NCBI GenBank assembly: GCA_028286245.1
Contig: JAQBRY010000002.1
Location: 206,779 to 270,778 of the forward strand
DNA from: Candidatus Saccharimonadota bacterium
GTDB lineage: Bacteria; Patescibacteriota; Saccharimonadia; Saccharimonadales; UBA4665
Direction of reading: 5' to 3'
DNA length: 64,000 bases
Part shown: one piece after another, positions 20,658 to 28,381 of the stretch
How positions within the stretch are numbered: position 1 is the first letter of the stretch
How the letters are laid out: each line of letters begins with the position of its first letter
The notes under the pieces: model-generated
Told to the model about the DNA's origin: nothing
The model's input: the letters and a program-made list of their open reading frames with translations, nothing else
The model's database searches: none
Made by a program: the position numbers and the translations under genes

Positions 20658-21245
20658 CTATTTAATCCCATGCATTTGACGTAATGCATCTGCAACTTTT
20701 TGCCACTGCTTATCCTTCATACGTTCTGTAGATTGTTCTTTAGGAGTACCGTTAAAAAGTTTTCCGAAATTGAGTAGCTCCAGATCAGTAGGAAGTTCTA
20801 TGCCTAAAGCATTCAATATAATATGTCCTGATAATACTGATATCTCCTCTATACCTACCGTGATCAATTTTCTTTTTGCTTCTTCGGGTATCCTCGATGA
20901 GGGTATCCCTTGATGACTGCCGCCTATGCAAGTATCGTAGAGATAATTTTTGCCACCAAACTGCCGTACTTCAAGTTGCTTAGTCTGAACGTCGCCCACT
21001 AGTCCTTCAGTAAGCGAAACACCAAGATGATATTCAGAATAGAATCCATCGGCAGCTTGCTCTTGTATTCTAGCAAGTTGTTCCTGATAAGTGCTTCCAT
21101 ACTTAAGATCATCTTCATACGTCGTTTCGGCATTTCCTACAAATACGTAATCTTCCTCCAATTGATAATCTCCGCCTTCACGAAGGACGTACATATGAGG
21201 CGCATAATCAATACTGGTCGAACTTCCACCGTCAATACTTGGCAT
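20658..21245 (-). CDS. Hypothetical protein
   Basis: A 195-residue soluble protein that I do not recognise. It has an acidic, Tyr-rich N-terminal half and a YDTCIGGSHQGIPSSRIPEEAK segment that could be an active-site loop. The ATG at 21245 was chosen because a near-perfect promoter places the transcript start on it. The gene is more AT-rich than its neighbours, and a copy of a tRNA-Lys end lies 41 bases upstream of its start. Confidence 0.6.
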   Translation of the reverse strand: MPSIDGGSSTSIDYAPHMYVLREGGDYQLEEDYVFVGNAETTYEDDLKYGSTYQEQLARIQEQAADGFYSEYHLGVSLTEGLVGDVQTKQLEVRQFGGKNYLYDTCIGGSHQGIPSSRIPEEAKRKLITVGIEEISVLSGHIILNALGIELPTDLELLNFGKLFNGTPKEQSTERMKDKQWQKVADALRQMHGIK

Positions 21246-21251
21246 AAAAAT

Positions 21252-21280
21252 ATAATACCACAAATAGGCAATACTTGCAA
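21252..21280 (-). promoter_or_regulatory. Promoter giving a leaderless transcript
   Basis: On the minus strand TTGCAA (21275-21280), a 17-base spacer and TATTAT (21252-21257) are followed by six bases and the ATG at 21245. Transcription would start on or next to the start codon. Confidence 0.7.
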
Positions 21281-21423: not shown

Positions 21424-21496
21424 GGGTCCAGTGGGACTCGAACCCACGACACCCTGCTTAAAAGGCAGGTGCTCTAACCGGCTGAGCTATGGACCC
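21424..21496 (-). tRNA. tRNA-Lys (anticodon TTT)
   Basis: The cloverleaf is complete: acceptor GGGTCCA/TGGACCC, D arm GCTC...GAGC, anticodon stem CCTGC/GCAGG with loop CTTTTAA, and T arm GTGGG TTCGAGT CCCAC. CCA is encoded (21422-21420). The discriminator would be T, unusual for tRNA-Lys. Confidence 0.95.
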
Positions 21497-21566: not shown

Positions 21567-22082
21567 TTATTCGTGGTGGCCGTGGTGCTTCTCTAAACTG
21601 CCACTTTTTGGGCGTTGCAGCCATAACACTAGCAAACATACTAGCGCGCTGGTGCCCACAATCAAATCCTGGGCCATTTGAGCCTGTTTCCACAGCGGAG
21701 AGCTCACAATATCGTGTGACAGGCCAGAGGCCAGCAGCGGCACCACCAAGAGGCTTCCCAGCAAGCCAACGCCGGCAGCCGGCAGTACGTTCAAAATAAG
21801 CCGAGCACCCTTAACGGTACGAATCATAAATATTGCCGTTAGTACGGTAGGCAGGAGCAGTAGAATAACCTTTATTAAATTATTCCCCGGTGCCACCGTT
21901 TGGGTAGCGTGCGAAGATCCGAACATATCCATAAACCACTTAGCGTCGTCACTGACGTATTGCACCAGCACATTACCAAGGCACAGGCTCAGAAAAACAA
22001 GCGCTGCGTTGATGCGAAGCACCATCAGGAGCACGATTGGCACTAGTACAATTGCAGCAAGAATAATGTTCGGCGTCACCAC
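21567..22082 (-). CDS. Multi-pass membrane protein next to the ATP-grasp genes
   Basis: The 171-residue protein has about five hydrophobic helices and a His-rich C-terminal end (EKHHGHHE). I do not recognise it. Start codons are GTG; TATAGT lies six bases before the second GTG (22079). It follows the 439-residue ATP-grasp gene after 37 bases on the same strand, so it may belong to the same functional group. Family assignment is not possible by eye. Confidence 0.65.
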   Translation of the reverse strand: MVTPNIILAAIVLVPIVLLMVLRINAALVFLSLCLGNVLVQYVSDDAKWFMDMFGSSHATQTVAPGNNLIKVILLLLPTVLTAIFMIRTVKGARLILNVLPAAGVGLLGSLLVVPLLASGLSHDIVSSPLWKQAQMAQDLIVGTSALVCLLVLWLQRPKSGSLEKHHGHHE

Positions 22083-22119
22083 ACCACTATACCATGAGCG
22101 GTATGGCTAGAATACAGGC

Positions 22120-23439
22120 TTAAGCTTTGACTTGGGGACGAGCTGGGCGCTTAACATTAATCTGAACGGTTTGTTCCAGACGGCGAATGTCGGCTAGCAA
22201 ATTGGAGCGGCTTTTATTAAACAAAACTATGTCAAACACCGGATCGGCGCCGTTACGCGCAAAGTCGCACATGTCACCTGGGCGTTTTTTAATTTCGATT
22301 CGTTTAAATGAAGCCAATTTACGAACTTTGTTTACGCCGTCAATATTGATGAGTTTACCCTTTTTGCGTGAGTAAAATTGCATTACGGCCGTGTAGCCAA
22401 GGACGCGCTTGGACATAACGGGCATTTTAGGAATCCGGATGAGGATGTCGTTCTGGCTATGATCCATACCGTATGATAATTCGTACATTTCGTGCCTAAA
22501 GCCGCCAATGCGGGGGCCCAGCTCAATGATCTTCCAGCCGTCTTCGGTTTTCATCAGCTCAATGTGGCAGGTGGTACTGCGCAGGTTAAGGGCTTTAATT
22601 GCCTTTTCGGCAACGTGCTTGGCAGCCTCAATCTTGTGCTCTTTTAGATTAACGGGCGTAATGCGCAGGTAGCCAAAAAAGTCCTCAAAGCCTACCGAGC
22701 GCCCGGTACGAACATGCACCAGCGGCATGTGGTACATAACGCCGCGTTGGTTCACGTAGGTATCTATCGAGTACATGGTGCCTTCCATAAACTCTTCTAC
22801 CAGTATCTGCGGTTCGCCGCGGCCCTTCTTCTTTTTGTAAATCTGATCAATTTTTTTAACAGTATTCTGCAGGTAGCTTTCCAGCTCTTCGCGGTAAAAA
22901 CACAGGCTCACCAGCAGGCTGGCAGCCAGGCCGGCGGGCTTAATAATTAATGGAAAGCCAATGTGCTTTTCGATGCGGTCCAAGGTTTCCTGGGAAGCAT
23001 CATGAATCACCAGGAACTTAGGTGAGATTGATTTGTCATAATTGCGCAGCAGTTGGCGCATTCTAATCTTGTCGGTGGTCCAGTCGAGTGATAATTCGGT
23101 TGGCGTATTAATGTAGGGGACGTGCGGGATCACCTTGCGGAGCATCGGGATGTTCTTTTCGGCCCGGCAGGTGACTGCCAGCAGGTGCTGTTGGTAGGGT
23201 GCCAGTGCCCGCTGAATTTGGATATGAGAAGTAAAGTCACACTGGATGTAGATGACTTCGGGGTCTGTTACCGCTAAATTACTGCCCGCACTTGGGTCAG
23301 TTACATCTAAGAGCACTACAGCTGTTAGCTTTTTATCAAAGCGCTTGCTCATTTTTTGCAGGGCGGCATGCTGCGGCGCAAGGTATGAGCCAACAAACAG
23401 AACTATATTACGGTCGTGATTATTTTCAAAAGTTGTCAT
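22120..23439 (-). CDS. ATP-grasp ligase, amino-acid-ligase-like
   Basis: ATP-grasp enzymes join a carboxylate to an amine or thiol through an acyl phosphate. The 439-residue protein has an N-terminal Rossmann-like domain (about 10-110), the ATP-binding strand GFPLIIKPAG (161-170), the VEEFMEG hinge segment (214-220), and HIELMKTEDGWKIIELGPRIGG (292-313) carrying the metal-binding Glu. The order and the ELGPRIGG end resemble L-amino acid ligases and biotin-carboxylase-type ATP-grasp proteins. A C-terminal region of about 90 residues follows. The substrate is unknown. Confidence 0.85.
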   Translation of the reverse strand: MTTFENNHDRNIVLFVGSYLAPQHAALQKMSKRFDKKLTAVVLLDVTDPSAGSNLAVTDPEVIYIQCDFTSHIQIQRALAPYQQHLLAVTCRAEKNIPMLRKVIPHVPYINTPTELSLDWTTDKIRMRQLLRNYDKSISPKFLVIHDASQETLDRIEKHIGFPLIIKPAGLAASLLVSLCFYREELESYLQNTVKKIDQIYKKKKGRGEPQILVEEFMEGTMYSIDTYVNQRGVMYHMPLVHVRTGRSVGFEDFFGYLRITPVNLKEHKIEAAKHVAEKAIKALNLRSTTCHIELMKTEDGWKIIELGPRIGGFRHEMYELSYGMDHSQNDILIRIPKMPVMSKRVLGYTAVMQFYSRKKGKLINIDGVNKVRKLASFKRIEIKKRPGDMCDFARNGADPVFDIVLFNKSRSNLLADIRRLEQTVQINVKRPARPQVKA

Positions 23440-23560
23440 TTGGTATATCTAATACTACTATCCAGTGCGAGGCAACAGTATTTTTTACCCTCACTTGATA
23501 GTTCGGTTATAGTAACATTTTGATCTGTTAATGTCAATAGTCCCTATGCCTTTTTTTGAA

Positions 23561-24562
23561 CTAGACTGTTTCGAGATAATCAAACAGATCCGCTATTACG
23601 GGCTGGATGCTGCCTTCGGTGGGGGTTTCGTGGATGTAGAGCGCAGGAGCCTTATTGACCTCTGTAATCATTGGGTCAAGTTGCTGGGCGGTAGCATCCA
23701 GTGTAGGAAGTCCCTGAAGTAAAAAATCTACTCCGCACACTGGCAGCTGCATGGCCTTGGCAGCTTTTTCCGAGAGCCCAATCAAAAAGTCGGGCATATC
23801 AGCCGTAACATCGATAGTCTCACCGCCGGTACCGACGTTGGCAGTACCGACTGCCTGGTACCACTCGCCTTCAGCCGGTACAGAGCGTAAGCGATCACCA
23901 AGAAAACGTTCGGCGGCGATCATATCAATCATATTAAGTTCCTTGGCATAGTTGAGCCCTCGGCGTGGGTCGGTGTTTGCGACTGCAATAAGTTCGGCTA
24001 CAGTTGAATGGCCATCGCCTTGAATTCGAGCGGGGCGCCGGATTAACGCTGCCACAACTTTGTAGTTAATGCAGAGTACACGGATATCAACTCGGTGCTG
24101 AAGGTACTCTTGTGCTAGCACGACACCCGAATACTGGCGAGCTGCCGCTAGGGCTTCCTGCAATTGTTCGTCGTCACGAATGCCGGTAGTAATACCCTGG
24201 CCGTGGCTGCCATTTGAAGGCTTTACAACGCCCTGCTTGCCCTGATTAAATAGTTTTTGGACAAACTCCTGCCCAGTCTCACCTTTTCTTACTAATTCGG
24301 AGGGAATAATCGGCAGATTTTGTTCGGCTAATTTAATATTAGTGACGTATTTGTCGTCTGCCATGTGCGACGCAACATACGACGTTGTGTCCGGGGCCGA
24401 ACCGAACATTTCGATCACTTTGCTATCGGGTCTAATGAGGCGCATATGAGCACTGCCGGGCCTATACAAAAAAGCTTGCCAGCCTCGGCCGAGTGCCTCC
24501 TCGGCTATCATGCGCAGCGTCATGCGCAGGTTTTCTACGCCGTAGTCGGCTACATCAATCAT
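23561..24562 (-). CDS. ATP-grasp ligase resembling the cyanophycin synthetase/GshF ATP-grasp domain
   Basis: The 333-residue protein has KPSNGSHGQGI (114-124), ALIRRPARIQGDGHSTVAEL (172-191), ANTDPRRGL, GTANVGTGGETIDVT (239-253), GVDF (277-280) and the metal site TEVNKAPALYIHETPTEGS (300-318). This order is that of the ATP-grasp part of cyanophycin synthetase and bifunctional glutathione synthetase GshF, but no Mur ligase or GshA part is attached. I chose the ATG at 24562, which overlaps the stop of the preceding ATP-grasp gene by eight bases; a GTG at 24619 is possible. Confidence 0.87.
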   Translation of the reverse strand: MIDVADYGVENLRMTLRMIAEEALGRGWQAFLYRPGSAHMRLIRPDSKVIEMFGSAPDTTSYVASHMADDKYVTNIKLAEQNLPIIPSELVRKGETGQEFVQKLFNQGKQGVVKPSNGSHGQGITTGIRDDEQLQEALAAARQYSGVVLAQEYLQHRVDIRVLCINYKVVAALIRRPARIQGDGHSTVAELIAVANTDPRRGLNYAKELNMIDMIAAERFLGDRLRSVPAEGEWYQAVGTANVGTGGETIDVTADMPDFLIGLSEKAAKAMQLPVCGVDFLLQGLPTLDATAQQLDPMITEVNKAPALYIHETPTEGSIQPVIADLFDYLETV

Positions 24563-25469
24563 GCGCAATTCGACTTTCGATGTAGGTGTTAAGGGCTGCC
24601 ATTTTATGGTCAATGGCACTGCCGGTGCTCATTTGCGGCATGTTGTTTGCCTCTAGAAAGTAGTGTTTTTGCGTAGTCAGGTCAATGATCATGTCAACGC
24701 CGGTAACTTCGCGGCGTAGCAGCTTGGCCATTAGCACCGCTTCGCTGAGCATTACTGGGTCTAAGTCTTCTACCGGCACTACGTTAGCACTGCCGCCCTG
24801 AGACGTATTATTCAGGTGCGAGCCTTCAACAGCCTGTCGATGCAGCGCCAGCTTTACTTCGTTACCCATGACTATTAGGCGGTAGTCGCCGTCGTTGGCT
24901 ACAAAATCCTGCAAAACAAACGGCTTATCGAGCTGAGCCGCTAGCACTGTCTGCAACTCCTCGCGAGATTTGATAAGGTAATTGTCACGTCCCCGTGAGG
25001 CCATGACGGCCTTAACGATGCAAGGCATAGCCACAAGGTCGGACTTGGCGAGCAGATGCTGGCCGTTAATAGAAAATACAAAGGCAGTACTAGAAACACC
25101 GTTTAAAGCGGCTAGCACGTACTGGCTCAGCTTGGTACGAGAACGGATATGCAGTGCTTCCGAATTCATGACTGGAATGTTGTAGTGCTGAGCGTAATAC
25201 GCCACGGCCATAGCGGTATCTTCGTGAATTTTTTCTTGGAACCAGGCCAATAAGAATACACCGTCATAATCTCTTAAATCGGTGTTAGATATAGGGTCTT
25301 CTAACCGTAATTCATTGCCATCGTAGCTAAAAACTAAGTCGTCTAAAAAAGCAGCGTGATAATCAATGGTCGGATTGAGTTTCTGCATCGCCGTTTGCAT
25401 AGAGGCTGCAGTGTCGTACTGTGTACGACTATCAACACGGGATAAAAATAATACTCTTTTTGAACTCAT
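24555..25469 (-). CDS. ATP-grasp ligase, RimK-like
   Basis: The 304-residue protein has a pre-ATP-grasp Rossmann domain (about 1-105), the ATP-binding strand PCIVKAVMASRGRDNYLI (149-166), VLQDFVANDGDYRLIVMG (185-202), NNTSQGGSANVV (220-231) and the metal site YFLEANNMPQMSTG (270-283). The NDGDYR...NTSQGG pattern is that of RimK-type amino acid ligases. It is first in the minus-strand series of three ATP-grasp genes and overlaps the next by eight bases. I chose the ATG at 25469 over a TTG three codons upstream. Confidence 0.87.
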   Translation of the reverse strand: MSSKRVLFLSRVDSRTQYDTAASMQTAMQKLNPTIDYHAAFLDDLVFSYDGNELRLEDPISNTDLRDYDGVFLLAWFQEKIHEDTAMAVAYYAQHYNIPVMNSEALHIRSRTKLSQYVLAALNGVSSTAFVFSINGQHLLAKSDLVAMPCIVKAVMASRGRDNYLIKSREELQTVLAAQLDKPFVLQDFVANDGDYRLIVMGNEVKLALHRQAVEGSHLNNTSQGGSANVVPVEDLDPVMLSEAVLMAKLLRREVTGVDMIIDLTTQKHYFLEANNMPQMSTGSAIDHKMAALNTYIESRIAHD

Positions 25470-25526
25470 ACTCGTCAAGGCCCCCGCAGTTGCTTATTTG
25501 GTTATTTTATGCTATTATATAGGAAT

Positions 25527-26291
25527 ATGCGTGTCGTGTCAATCGGTGGTGGTAATAAAGCGCCCATACTTGAAGAAGCCGTACAGCGGCATGAAGTTCA
25601 GAAGGTATTAATAGTGCCCAGTGCCTGCTCAACGCCGCAAAGCTATGCCCGAAAAGTACCGGCCACCATGCAGCTCTTTAGCGAGCAGCTTGGGGTCCCC
25701 GAAGTAAGTATTCTTCACCATTTCAATCAAGCGCCGACGCCTACCCAAATTGAGCACGAGATCGCCACCAGTGGGCTCATCTACGTTATAGGCGGCCACA
25801 CGCCAACGCTTTTAAAGAACATAGCAGCTCATGGTACCGGCCAGGCAATTCGGCGGGCAACCAAAGATAACCAGGTCGTACTAGCCGGCGCCAGCGCCGG
25901 TGCCGTACTGCCTTTTCAAAAAGCAATGATAAATCCCGCCACCCAGCCCGCTAAGCAAGCCTGGGAGTACCAGTTTGTTGACGGCCTCGCCCTTATTCCG
26001 GCAGCCGCGACTGCCCACGCCAATCAGCAAGACCCTCACCCGGATAATGGCCCAAACAAACTAGCTCGGGGGAACTGGTTCTTTCAAAACCTCGGCGAGC
26101 TAGCTCTTCCGGGCATCGCCATCGACAATCACGCCGCCTTAGTTATCGATGGACATACTGCGACTATCAGCCGCTCAGATCCGGACGCGCAGATTCATCT
26201 TTGGAATCCGGCCAACGTCGAGAATAACCCTCTGACGCTTGCGGATCCTGAAAATTTACTTGCCTTCTGGCAGTCATTACCACTTAAATAG
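25527..26291 (+). CDS. Peptidase S51 / cyanophycinase-like protein
   Basis: The 254-residue protein has the cyanophycinase-type S51 layout: MRVVSIGGGNKAPILEEA at the start, YVIGGHTPTLL (86-96) and the nucleophile elbow GASAGA with Ser123. Cyanophycinases cut beta-Asp-Arg dipeptides from cyanophycin; other S51 members cut different aspartyl bonds. It is divergent from three ATP-grasp ligases, only 57 bases away. I chose the ATG at 25527, which has a TATTATAT hexamer region six to eight bases upstream; the frame is open six codons further. Confidence 0.88.
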   Translation: MRVVSIGGGNKAPILEEAVQRHEVQKVLIVPSACSTPQSYARKVPATMQLFSEQLGVPEVSILHHFNQAPTPTQIEHEIATSGLIYVIGGHTPTLLKNIAAHGTGQAIRRATKDNQVVLAGASAGAVLPFQKAMINPATQPAKQAWEYQFVDGLALIPAAATAHANQQDPHPDNGPNKLARGNWFFQNLGELALPGIAIDNHAALVIDGHTATISRSDPDAQIHLWNPANVENNPLTLADPENLLAFWQSLPLK

Positions 26292-26507: not shown

Positions 26508-27290
26508 ATGTCCGAGCAAACACCGTCGTTACAAGCCTCTGCAGAGGGTGTCCCACCTATGGGCACCGAATTCGAAGCAGCTTCAGGACCAAGCAGCCTA
26601 GAGCAACGATTAGCAGAACTTACTCGAGAGCTTGCCCAAGAAAGGCTGGCTCGCGAGCAACTACAGCTCGAAAATGGCAACCTGCGTGCCGACAAACAAG
26701 GGCTCCTCGAAGCCGCATACGAGAAGGATGTAAGAATTGCTGACCTAGAAGAAGAAATTATCCATGATGACCTTACAGGGCTCTACACGCGCAAATTTAT
26801 AGAACTCAGTGCCGAACAGCTCATAGCCCGGCAGGTGCGCCATGGAATGCGGCGACGTGGTGACGTGGCGGCGACACGGGAAGTTGCTTCCGGTCCGCAC
26901 AGCTTAGTAGCCCTCGATATTGACCACTTTAAGCTAATTAACGATACCTACGGACATGGTTTTGGCAACGAAGTCCTGCGCCTAGTTGGCATACTCATGC
27001 GCGAAAAATTTCATCGCGCTACGGATGTAGCCGCTAGAATTGGTGGCGAAGAGTTCGCCATCTTACTGCCCGATATGTCATCCCAAGCCGCGGAAGCAAT
27101 AGTAAACGACTTCCGTGCCATAGTATACGAGGATGCTCAATCAAAGGGCATTACATTAACATTTAGTGGCGGCATTGTTACGCTGGACGACAAAACGTTT
27201 AAAGACAGCTTGGCGCGTGCCGACAAAGCGCTGTACGAGGCCAAGGAGGATGGCCGTGACAAGGTCTACATCGTTCCTTCGGCTAACTAA
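26508..27290 (+). CDS. Diguanylate cyclase (GGDEF domain)
   Basis: This enzyme would make c-di-GMP from two GTP. The 260-residue protein has an N-terminal coiled coil (about 28-85) and a GGDEF domain (about 86-256) with the substrate segment LDIDHFKLINDTYGH and an intact GGEEF (179-183). The inhibitory RxxD site is also present at 170-173, five residues before GGEEF. There is no membrane segment or recognisable sensor, so the coiled coil may control dimerisation. TTGCAA (26471-26476) and TAATAA (26493-26498) form a promoter, and there is no ribosome binding site. Its stop codon interlocks with that of dnaJ. Confidence 0.93.
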   Translation: MSEQTPSLQASAEGVPPMGTEFEAASGPSSLEQRLAELTRELAQERLAREQLQLENGNLRADKQGLLEAAYEKDVRIADLEEEIIHDDLTGLYTRKFIELSAEQLIARQVRHGMRRRGDVAATREVASGPHSLVALDIDHFKLINDTYGHGFGNEVLRLVGILMREKFHRATDVAARIGGEEFAILLPDMSSQAAEAIVNDFRAIVYEDAQSKGITLTFSGGIVTLDDKTFKDSLARADKALYEAKEDGRDKVYIVPSAN

Positions 27291-28381
27291 CTCCAGAATT
27301 TGTGCTTGGTACCAGTGGCCGCAAATTGCTCGAGAAGCTCTTGCTGCTGCTTAGTAAGCTTGGTTGGCGTATCGACAATAATGGTAATAATGTGAGCTCC
27401 GCGGCCGCTGCCACGCAGATGCGGCACGCCGTGTCCACTCAGCTTAAAGTCGCTACCACCCTGGGTGCCGGCTGGAATCTTCATGCGAACCGGGCCATCA
27501 ACGGTGGCAACTTCTATTTCCGTGCCGAGTGCGGCCTCCGCCATGTTGATGTGTTCACTGCTAAGAATTAAATCGCCCTCACGAGTGAATTTTTTGTGGG
27601 GCTTAACGCGGACGTTTACGTACAAATCACCCTTTGGGCCATTGGCTACCGCTTCGCCGTGTTCACGCAGGCGGATAGTTGCCGCATCATCAATACCGGC
27701 CGGAATTTTTAGACTTACCGTCTGCTTTTTGTGCTGGGTGCCCTTGCCGTTACATACGCTACAGGCTTTTTCGGGAACCTTACCGCGGCCGTGGCAGGTC
27801 GGACAGACAGCAGCCTGCTGGATGTTACCAAAGATTGTCCGGGCTACGGTAACTACTTGACCGGAGCCCTTACAAGTAGCGCAGGTCTTGAGTTCGTAAC
27901 CCGGTTCGACAGTTGAACCTTTACAGTGCTCACAAGTATCGTCTAAGTTAAGAATAATTTCGGTTTCGGTACCAAAGATAGCATCTTCAAAGCTGATATC
28001 AATCCGGGCTTCAACGTCGCGACCACGGGCTTGCCGCTGTTGGCCGCCACCACCGCCATTGCCACCGCCAAAAAAGCTGCCAAAAATGTCACCGAGGCCG
28101 AGGTCACCAAAGTCAAAGTTGATGTTTTGGCCTTGGCCAAAACCATCATAGCCACCGCCACCATTGCCACCAACACCGGCATGACCAAACTGGTCATAGC
28201 GCTGCTTTTTAGACGGATCTTTAAGCACTTCGTAAGCTTCGTTGAGCTCCTTAAACTTGGCTTCGTCACCACCACGATCGGGGTGGTGCTCAATAGCCGC
28301 CTTGCGGAAGGCCTTTTTGATTTCATCGGGGCTGGCGTCTTTGCCAATTCCTAAAATTTCGTAATAATCACGCTTTGCCAT
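27287..28381 (-). CDS. dnaJ: Chaperone DnaJ
   Basis: DnaJ stimulates the ATPase of DnaK and delivers unfolded clients. The 364-residue protein has the J domain with the HPD motif (about 33-35), a Gly/Phe-rich linker (about 70-118), four zinc-binding CxxCxGx repeats (CEHCKGS, CATCKGSG, CPTCHGRG, CSVCNGKG) and the C-terminal client-binding domains. It lies 126 bases downstream of dnaK on the same strand. That gap contains complementary segments GGTCG (28438-28442) and CGACC (28478-28482), a possible mRNA hairpin. Confidence 0.96.
   Translation of the reverse strand: MAKRDYYEILGIGKDASPDEIKKAFRKAAIEHHPDRGGDEAKFKELNEAYEVLKDPSKKQRYDQFGHAGVGGNGGGGYDGFGQGQNINFDFGDLGLGDIFGSFFGGGNGGGGGQQRQARGRDVEARIDISFEDAIFGTETEIILNLDDTCEHCKGSTVEPGYELKTCATCKGSGQVVTVARTIFGNIQQAAVCPTCHGRGKVPEKACSVCNGKGTQHKKQTVSLKIPAGIDDAATIRLREHGEAVANGPKGDLYVNVRVKPHKKFTREGDLILSSEHINMAEAALGTEIEVATVDGPVRMKIPAGTQGGSDFKLSGHGVPHLRGSGRGAHIITIIVDTPTKLTKQQQELLEQFAATGTKHKFWS

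Follow-up and report, generated by a model that had tools for sequence, protein, structure and literature searches.

Within a 64,000-nucleotide stretch of a Candidatus Saccharimonadota genome (hereafter the window; contig C2 of G000, a Saccharibacterial draft of 1.13 Mb) lies a compact island in which three different ATP-grasp ligase genes run along the minus strand and a gene for an S51-family peptidase diverges from them. The first ligase gene, A (24555..25469, 304 amino acids), is RimK-like. Gene B (23561..24562, 333 amino acids), which overlaps A by 8 bases, encodes a stand-alone ligase of the type seen in the G domain of cyanophycin synthetase (CphA), and gene C (22120..23439, 439 amino acids) encodes an ATP-grasp protein of the L-amino-acid-ligase (LAL) type. 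The island ends with gene M (21567..22082, minus strand), which specifies a small hydrophobic protein. The peptidase gene, S51 (25527..26291, plus strand, 254 amino acids), stands head-to-head with A, the two ATG codons being 57 bases apart. Beyond it are a plus-strand gene for a GGDEF protein of 260 amino acids (26508..27290, PF00990), a conserved member of the island, and dnaJ on the minus strand (27287..28381), its fixed anchor. The initial annotation had described the three ligases, M and the divergent peptidase with these same starts, overlap and gap, and family matches and intact key residues bear this out; its span omitted the dnaJ/GGDEF side, which belongs to the same island. The window holds a rare version of the island, in which the place taken by RimK and RimB in relatives is occupied by a ligase of the CphA type and a peptidase of the S51 family.

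A and B are the only PF08443 matches in the window genome (E-values 1.2e-16 and 9e-11, respectively). A profile search did not find the PF18030 N domain of RimK in either protein, and canonical RimK, which combines PF18030 and PF08443, is not present in the genome. The best Protein Data Bank (PDB) match of A is RimK (4.7e-9); a structure model of A (predicted local distance difference test [pLDDT] score of 54) was too poor and was not used. The ATP/metal positions of A (K113, K153, R197, R211, D259, E273, and N275) and of B (K71, K114, R161, R175, D279, E301, and N303) are invariant among relatives, and the two proteins thus look like working ligases. C matches PF13535 (E-value 4.3e-20) and, marginally above cut-off, LAL_C2 (PF18603; 8.3e-7), so it has the ATP-grasp_4 plus LAL_C2 architecture of L-amino-acid ligases, a class assignment made by domains only; its PDB matches are the dipeptide ligases BL00235 and BacD. 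No family match to M was found in Pfam or NCBIfam, and its homologues are syntenic in most relatives. A, B, C and S51 all score below the curated equivalog cut-offs of NCBIfam. A phage-gene reading was set aside, A and B giving only a weak PHROG match to a RimK-like protein, as was a defense-system reading, for which there was no PADLOC match.

The closest affinity of B is with CphA. Its best NCBIfam model is cyanophycin synthetase, over the G-domain part only (200-470 of 862; E-value 3.6e-54, below cut-off), and its best PDB match is CphA, again in the G domain only (3.5e-32). B also matches models for GshF and N-acetylglutaminylglutamine synthetase, below cut-off, GshF less well than CphA. 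We mapped B onto TeCphA1 using the PDB-match alignment together with published residue roles (PMC9427784). The catalytic residues Lys220, Lys261, His267, and Arg309 are kept as K71, K114, H120, and R161, and Arg323, Asn394, Asp431, and Glu450 as R175, N242, D279, and E301, while Ser396 is replaced by Gly244. In CphA, Glu215 reads the primer and Arg458 grips the alpha-carboxylate of aspartate (Asp) (PMC9427784); B has H66 and Y309 at these positions and thus lacks the CphA means of recognizing primer and Asp. The P-loop His is CphA-like and unlike that of GshF, and the Glu215 and Arg458 positions are changed as in GshF. Since the catalytic residues are kept and these two are changed, the probable role of B is CphA-like activation of a C-terminal carboxyl without recognition of cyanophycin.

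The S51 protein matches PF03575 (E-value 2.5e-23, 83 bits) and carries the GxSAG signature of the family, with the nucleophile Ser123 in GASAGA; His164 is conserved in six of seven homologues. Profile matches are to peptidase E and cyanophycinase, and an AlphaFold model of moderate quality (pLDDT 65) resembles dipeptidase E and the cyanophycinase CphB about equally. In all eight island loci with S51, it forms a head-to-head pair with the leading gene of the ligase run, that leading gene being A in five, B in two and a gene for a MATCAP metallopeptidase in one; the divergent gap measures 36 to 78 bases, counted from longest-open-reading-frame starts except in the window. Wherever A and S51 occur in the same locus (five of five), they form such a pair. 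Twelve further, more remote S51 relatives are not part of clusters of this kind; one of these, L321, has a weakly RimK-like gene in divergent orientation about 0.5 kb away.

To place the island, A, B, C and S51 were searched for in 93 genomes of the host family, and about 80 neighborhoods were read. Site counts are based on the 70 sites complete from dnaJ to M on one contig; gene calls were mechanical, many of the genomes are drafts, and homologues within one family are not independent. The interval from dnaK-dnaJ to M is a fixed site in the family, with dnaJ homologues 65 to 81% identical at the same place in relatives and often a GGDEF gene on the opposite strand. Every one of the 70 sites holds at least one ligase, and 68 hold at least one hydrolase (67 on a stricter count by family or hidden Markov model, as X469 of G018 is included by its HELRH motif alone). 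A pair of RimB (PF05618) and RimK is present in 63 of 70, and RimB occurs in 73 of the 93 family members. A is found at 38 sites, B at 10 and C at 8. B and C co-occur, C being present at 7 of 10 sites with B versus 1 of 60 without (Fisher p 8e-7, a guide only, as the genomes are related). Elsewhere the site contains MATCAP metallopeptidases (PF08014), further ATP-grasp families, or a free-standing Mur ligase that scores best against the model of the CphA Mur domain.

Several of these loci carry further proteins of note. MATCAP-type enzymes, which belong to the tubulin tyrosine carboxypeptidase family, occur in RimK islands at L116:9630-10940, L118:9112-10299 and L255:7704-8912. Split cyanophycin-synthetase-like genes, with a free CphA Mur domain, are seen at L114:9609-11944, L122:5547-6836 and L187, adjoining a G-domain relative of B in L114. 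Island proteins at L140:6586-7548, L180:2723-3724 and L113:8281-9339 appeared by eye to be N-formylglutamate-amidohydrolase-like or gamma-glutamylcyclotransferase (GGCT)-like (AYGSN), but Pfam did not confirm this. Such by-eye readings (the former in G022 and G072, the GGCT-like in G015, X352) had no Pfam match and were not counted as hydrolases.

A and RimB form a single protein in 27 relatives, with RimB N-terminal in 25 and C-terminal in 2; fusions of opposite domain order occur in different genomes, for example, at L115:7116-8438 and L116:8213-9619. A further six proteins are RimK-RimB fusions. Fusion of ligase to protease in both orders makes a common substrate very likely. Where A occurs without RimB, another peptidase is usually at the site, namely S51 (the window genome, G068, and FW300), MATCAP (G075) or an HExxH protein (G018). 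RimB (PF05618) is found nowhere in the window genome, G068 or G088. As the window genome has no PF05618 protein and A and B are its only PF08443 matches, S51 is the sole candidate eraser at its site.

The window's enzyme set recurs. Three other genomes carry all four genes, A, B, C and S51, at one locus: G068, FW300 bin 23 (L104) and G232, the last from another family than the window genome; recurrence in at least two families is more than chance would give. Partial versions are seen in G233 (A, C and S51, without B) and G151 (S51, C and MATCAP), while G088 and G238 combine a more divergent S51 with B, C and another ATP-grasp gene. Neither dispersal of the four genes in related genomes nor decay of the ATP and metal sites, the two outcomes that the initial annotation had named as fatal to its proposal, was found. 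The window's C shares 71 to 74% identity with its counterparts in other genera and families (G068, L100, and L104) and 49% with that of the same-genus G088. In contrast, DnaJ identity tracks taxonomy, at 81% for G088, 75% for G068 and 65 to 66% for L100 and L104. From this discrepancy, the island appears to exchange its contents by horizontal transfer, with the anchor genes remaining in place.

Gene context thus gives a well-supported case for a system that makes and breaks an amide bond: a fixed island with ligases and with a hydrolase at 68 of 70 sites, fusion of A to RimB, and the invariable head-to-head placement of S51 and A. That part of the earlier proposal stands; its description as an isolated, undescribed system does not, because the site is a Saccharibacterial rim-type island and the pairs RimK/RimB and RloC/RloA are known. 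As a more specific reading, we see about an even chance that the island encodes an amino-acid writer-eraser system of the rim/rlo type. It builds on direct observations, namely, the gene content, the intact active-site residues, the conserved set, the fixed site and the lack of a RimB or CphA-type Mur partner in the window genome. Using ATP, A and B would activate an acceptor chain, presumably a protein or peptide end, at its C-terminal carboxyl and then add an amino acid there. C, of dipeptide-ligase type, could be the source or the adder of a further unit, and S51, divergent from A, would take the addition off. M might anchor the system, or what it makes, to the membrane, with regulation perhaps provided by the GGDEF protein. 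Known S51 enzymes prefer Asp and B is CphA-type, so Asp rather than glutamate (Glu) is a plausible added residue. We put forward only tentatively, as a minority possibility, the fuller proposal of a reversible Asp-containing protein tail, written by CphA-type and RimK-like ligases and erased by S51 in parallel to Glu tagging by RimK/RimB, with the island as a slot for horizontally swapped, unrelated ligases and erasers (RimB, S51, MATCAP, and perhaps others).

Several observations weigh against the writer-eraser reading. The loss of the CphA Arg458 in B (Y309) means that Asp is not assured as the added residue. Ligases occur at sites with no recognized hydrolase in G014 (A and C), RYN_406 (L100; RimK-like, B and C), G015 and G071. 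In family f2 (L253-L255), S51 is found together with RimB-RimK, and S51 is therefore not a strict substitute for RimB, a relation that does hold in family f1. Among 31 relatives, none was found to encode an EAL protein, so c-di-GMP (cyclic dimeric GMP) signaling is incomplete or different there. Finally, were S6 a substrate of RimK in these bacteria, its acidic tail might be less strictly kept in genomes that have lost RimB-RimK. S6 tails are acidic overall, and an acidic residue ends the protein in 39 of 68 genomes with RimB and 10 of 19 without (n=87; Fisher p 0.80); this covariation lends no support to S6 as the substrate, yet does not rule it out.

Part of this evidence could be read otherwise. 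The ligases might tailor the wall or surface, attaching amino acids either to precursors of peptidoglycan or to a different envelope polymer; S51 would trim these additions, with M at the membrane. In some other bacteria, ATP-grasp ligases build wall cross-bridges, M is conserved at the site, and MurC to MurF are encoded in the window genome, so peptidoglycan precursors can be made. The rlo system affects the shape of the cell, and a membrane protein takes part in it (PMC12239564). However, no wall gene is recognized within the island and the strongest links point to RimB/RimK, leaving this possible but unlikely. We likewise consider it rather unlikely that the product is a free, non-ribosomal short peptide or osmolyte, in which the product of C would be extended by B and A and recycled by S51. 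The resemblance of C to BL00235 and BacD and the matches of B below cut-off to the GshF and N-acetylglutaminylglutamine synthetase models would suit it, but C is optional, at 8 of 70 sites, and A mostly occurs without C and is often one polypeptide with a protease whose known role is the removal of protein tails.

A cyanophycin-like storage polymer, made by B as a split CphA and degraded by S51 as a cyanophycinase, is improbable, even though B is closest to the CphA G domain and a free CphA Mur domain is encoded beside a relative of B in G081. CphA combines an N, a G and a Mur-type M domain, and B has the G type alone. The five Mur-type ligases of the window genome are MurC, MurD, MurE, MurF and FolC, so the lack of a CphA-type Mur domain that the initial annotation noted at the locus holds for the whole genome and makes cyanophycin unlikely. 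The exchange of Glu215 and Arg458 for H66 and Y309 also speaks against it, as does the score of S51 against the cyanophycinase model TIGR02069, 31.8 bits versus a curated cut-off of 126.6. Several adjacent ATP-grasp genes also recall graspetide clusters for ribosomally synthesized and post-translationally modified peptides, in which such enzymes cross-link a precursor peptide. That is very improbable here, because the gaps within S51-A-B-C, at most 121 bases in the window and 122 in L104, are too short to house a conserved precursor gene.

The GGDEF gene of the island is the only one in the window genome (a single PF00990 match) and encodes a GGEEF motif; in nine further family members, the only GGDEF copy is also at the island. 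c-di-GMP is a ligand of Pseudomonas fluorescens RimK (PMC4741518), and the island system may be under the control of the GGDEF protein through this nucleotide. A predicted sigma-70-type promoter for A-B, TTGACA-17-TATAAT (25514..25542, minus strand, 12/12), sits in the S51-A gap with its -35 box inside the start of S51, and a promoter-like TTGACA-17-TACTAT with TG 5' of the -10 box precedes C (23509..23537, minus strand, 10/12); both are consensus matches only, in a region with 16 promoter-like sites versus 7.0 +/- 2.8 in shuffles. Just past M is an apparent tRNA (21429-21496, minus strand), by eye a tRNA-Lys, and a 201-amino-acid open reading frame with no Pfam or NCBIfam match (20658-21263) adjoins the island.

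Saccharibacterial genomes are small with scant biosynthesis, yet in this family ligases and a cutting enzyme are near-universal at one site. This retention, with exchange among unrelated families, argues that reversible amino-acid addition is important to these organisms. The pattern also singles out specific enzymes for a substrate search, and it assigns S51 and MATCAP (tubulin-carboxypeptidase-like) enzymes to the genomic slot also used by RimB. Among the papers searched, none tied Saccharibacteria to RimK, and the titles and abstracts of those treating both ATP-grasp enzymes and cyanophycinase describe no such ligase/S51 pair. The 2009 study of amidoligase neighborhoods by Iyer et al. (Mol Biosyst 5:1636) reportedly predicted ATP-grasp ligase/peptidase pairing by comparative analysis.

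Among known systems, cyanophycin CphA1/CphB shares with the island the homology of B to the CphA G domain, including the catalytic His and Arg, and the membership of S51 in the CphB/PepE family. The island differs in lacking N and Mur domains, in its changed primer and Asp-alpha-carboxylate residues and in an S51 below the cyanophycinase cut-off. The rlo system of Pseudomonas aeruginosa likewise unites a protease (RloA), a membrane protein (RloB) and an ATP-grasp ligase (RloC) in one locus, and defects from loss of the RloA-type proteases are rescued by mutations in RloC or RloB (PMC12239564). Its protease is of another family, however, and, with no family match for M, no link between it and the inactive transglutaminase 7TM protein was detected. 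In the rim system (RimABK, Pseudomonas), RimK makes Glu tails that RimB cuts, RimB also stimulating RimK (PMC11957791). In place of the retropepsin-like RimB and canonical RimK, the window genome has A, CphA-type B, LAL-type C and S51, and a GGDEF protein stands where rim has the EAL protein RimA. Nonetheless, the window genes occupy the position of the rim island, in which relatives carry RimB-RimK, and the two share a RimK-like ligase (A, fused to RimB in relatives), a ligase with a hydrolase and a c-di-GMP-related gene nearby.

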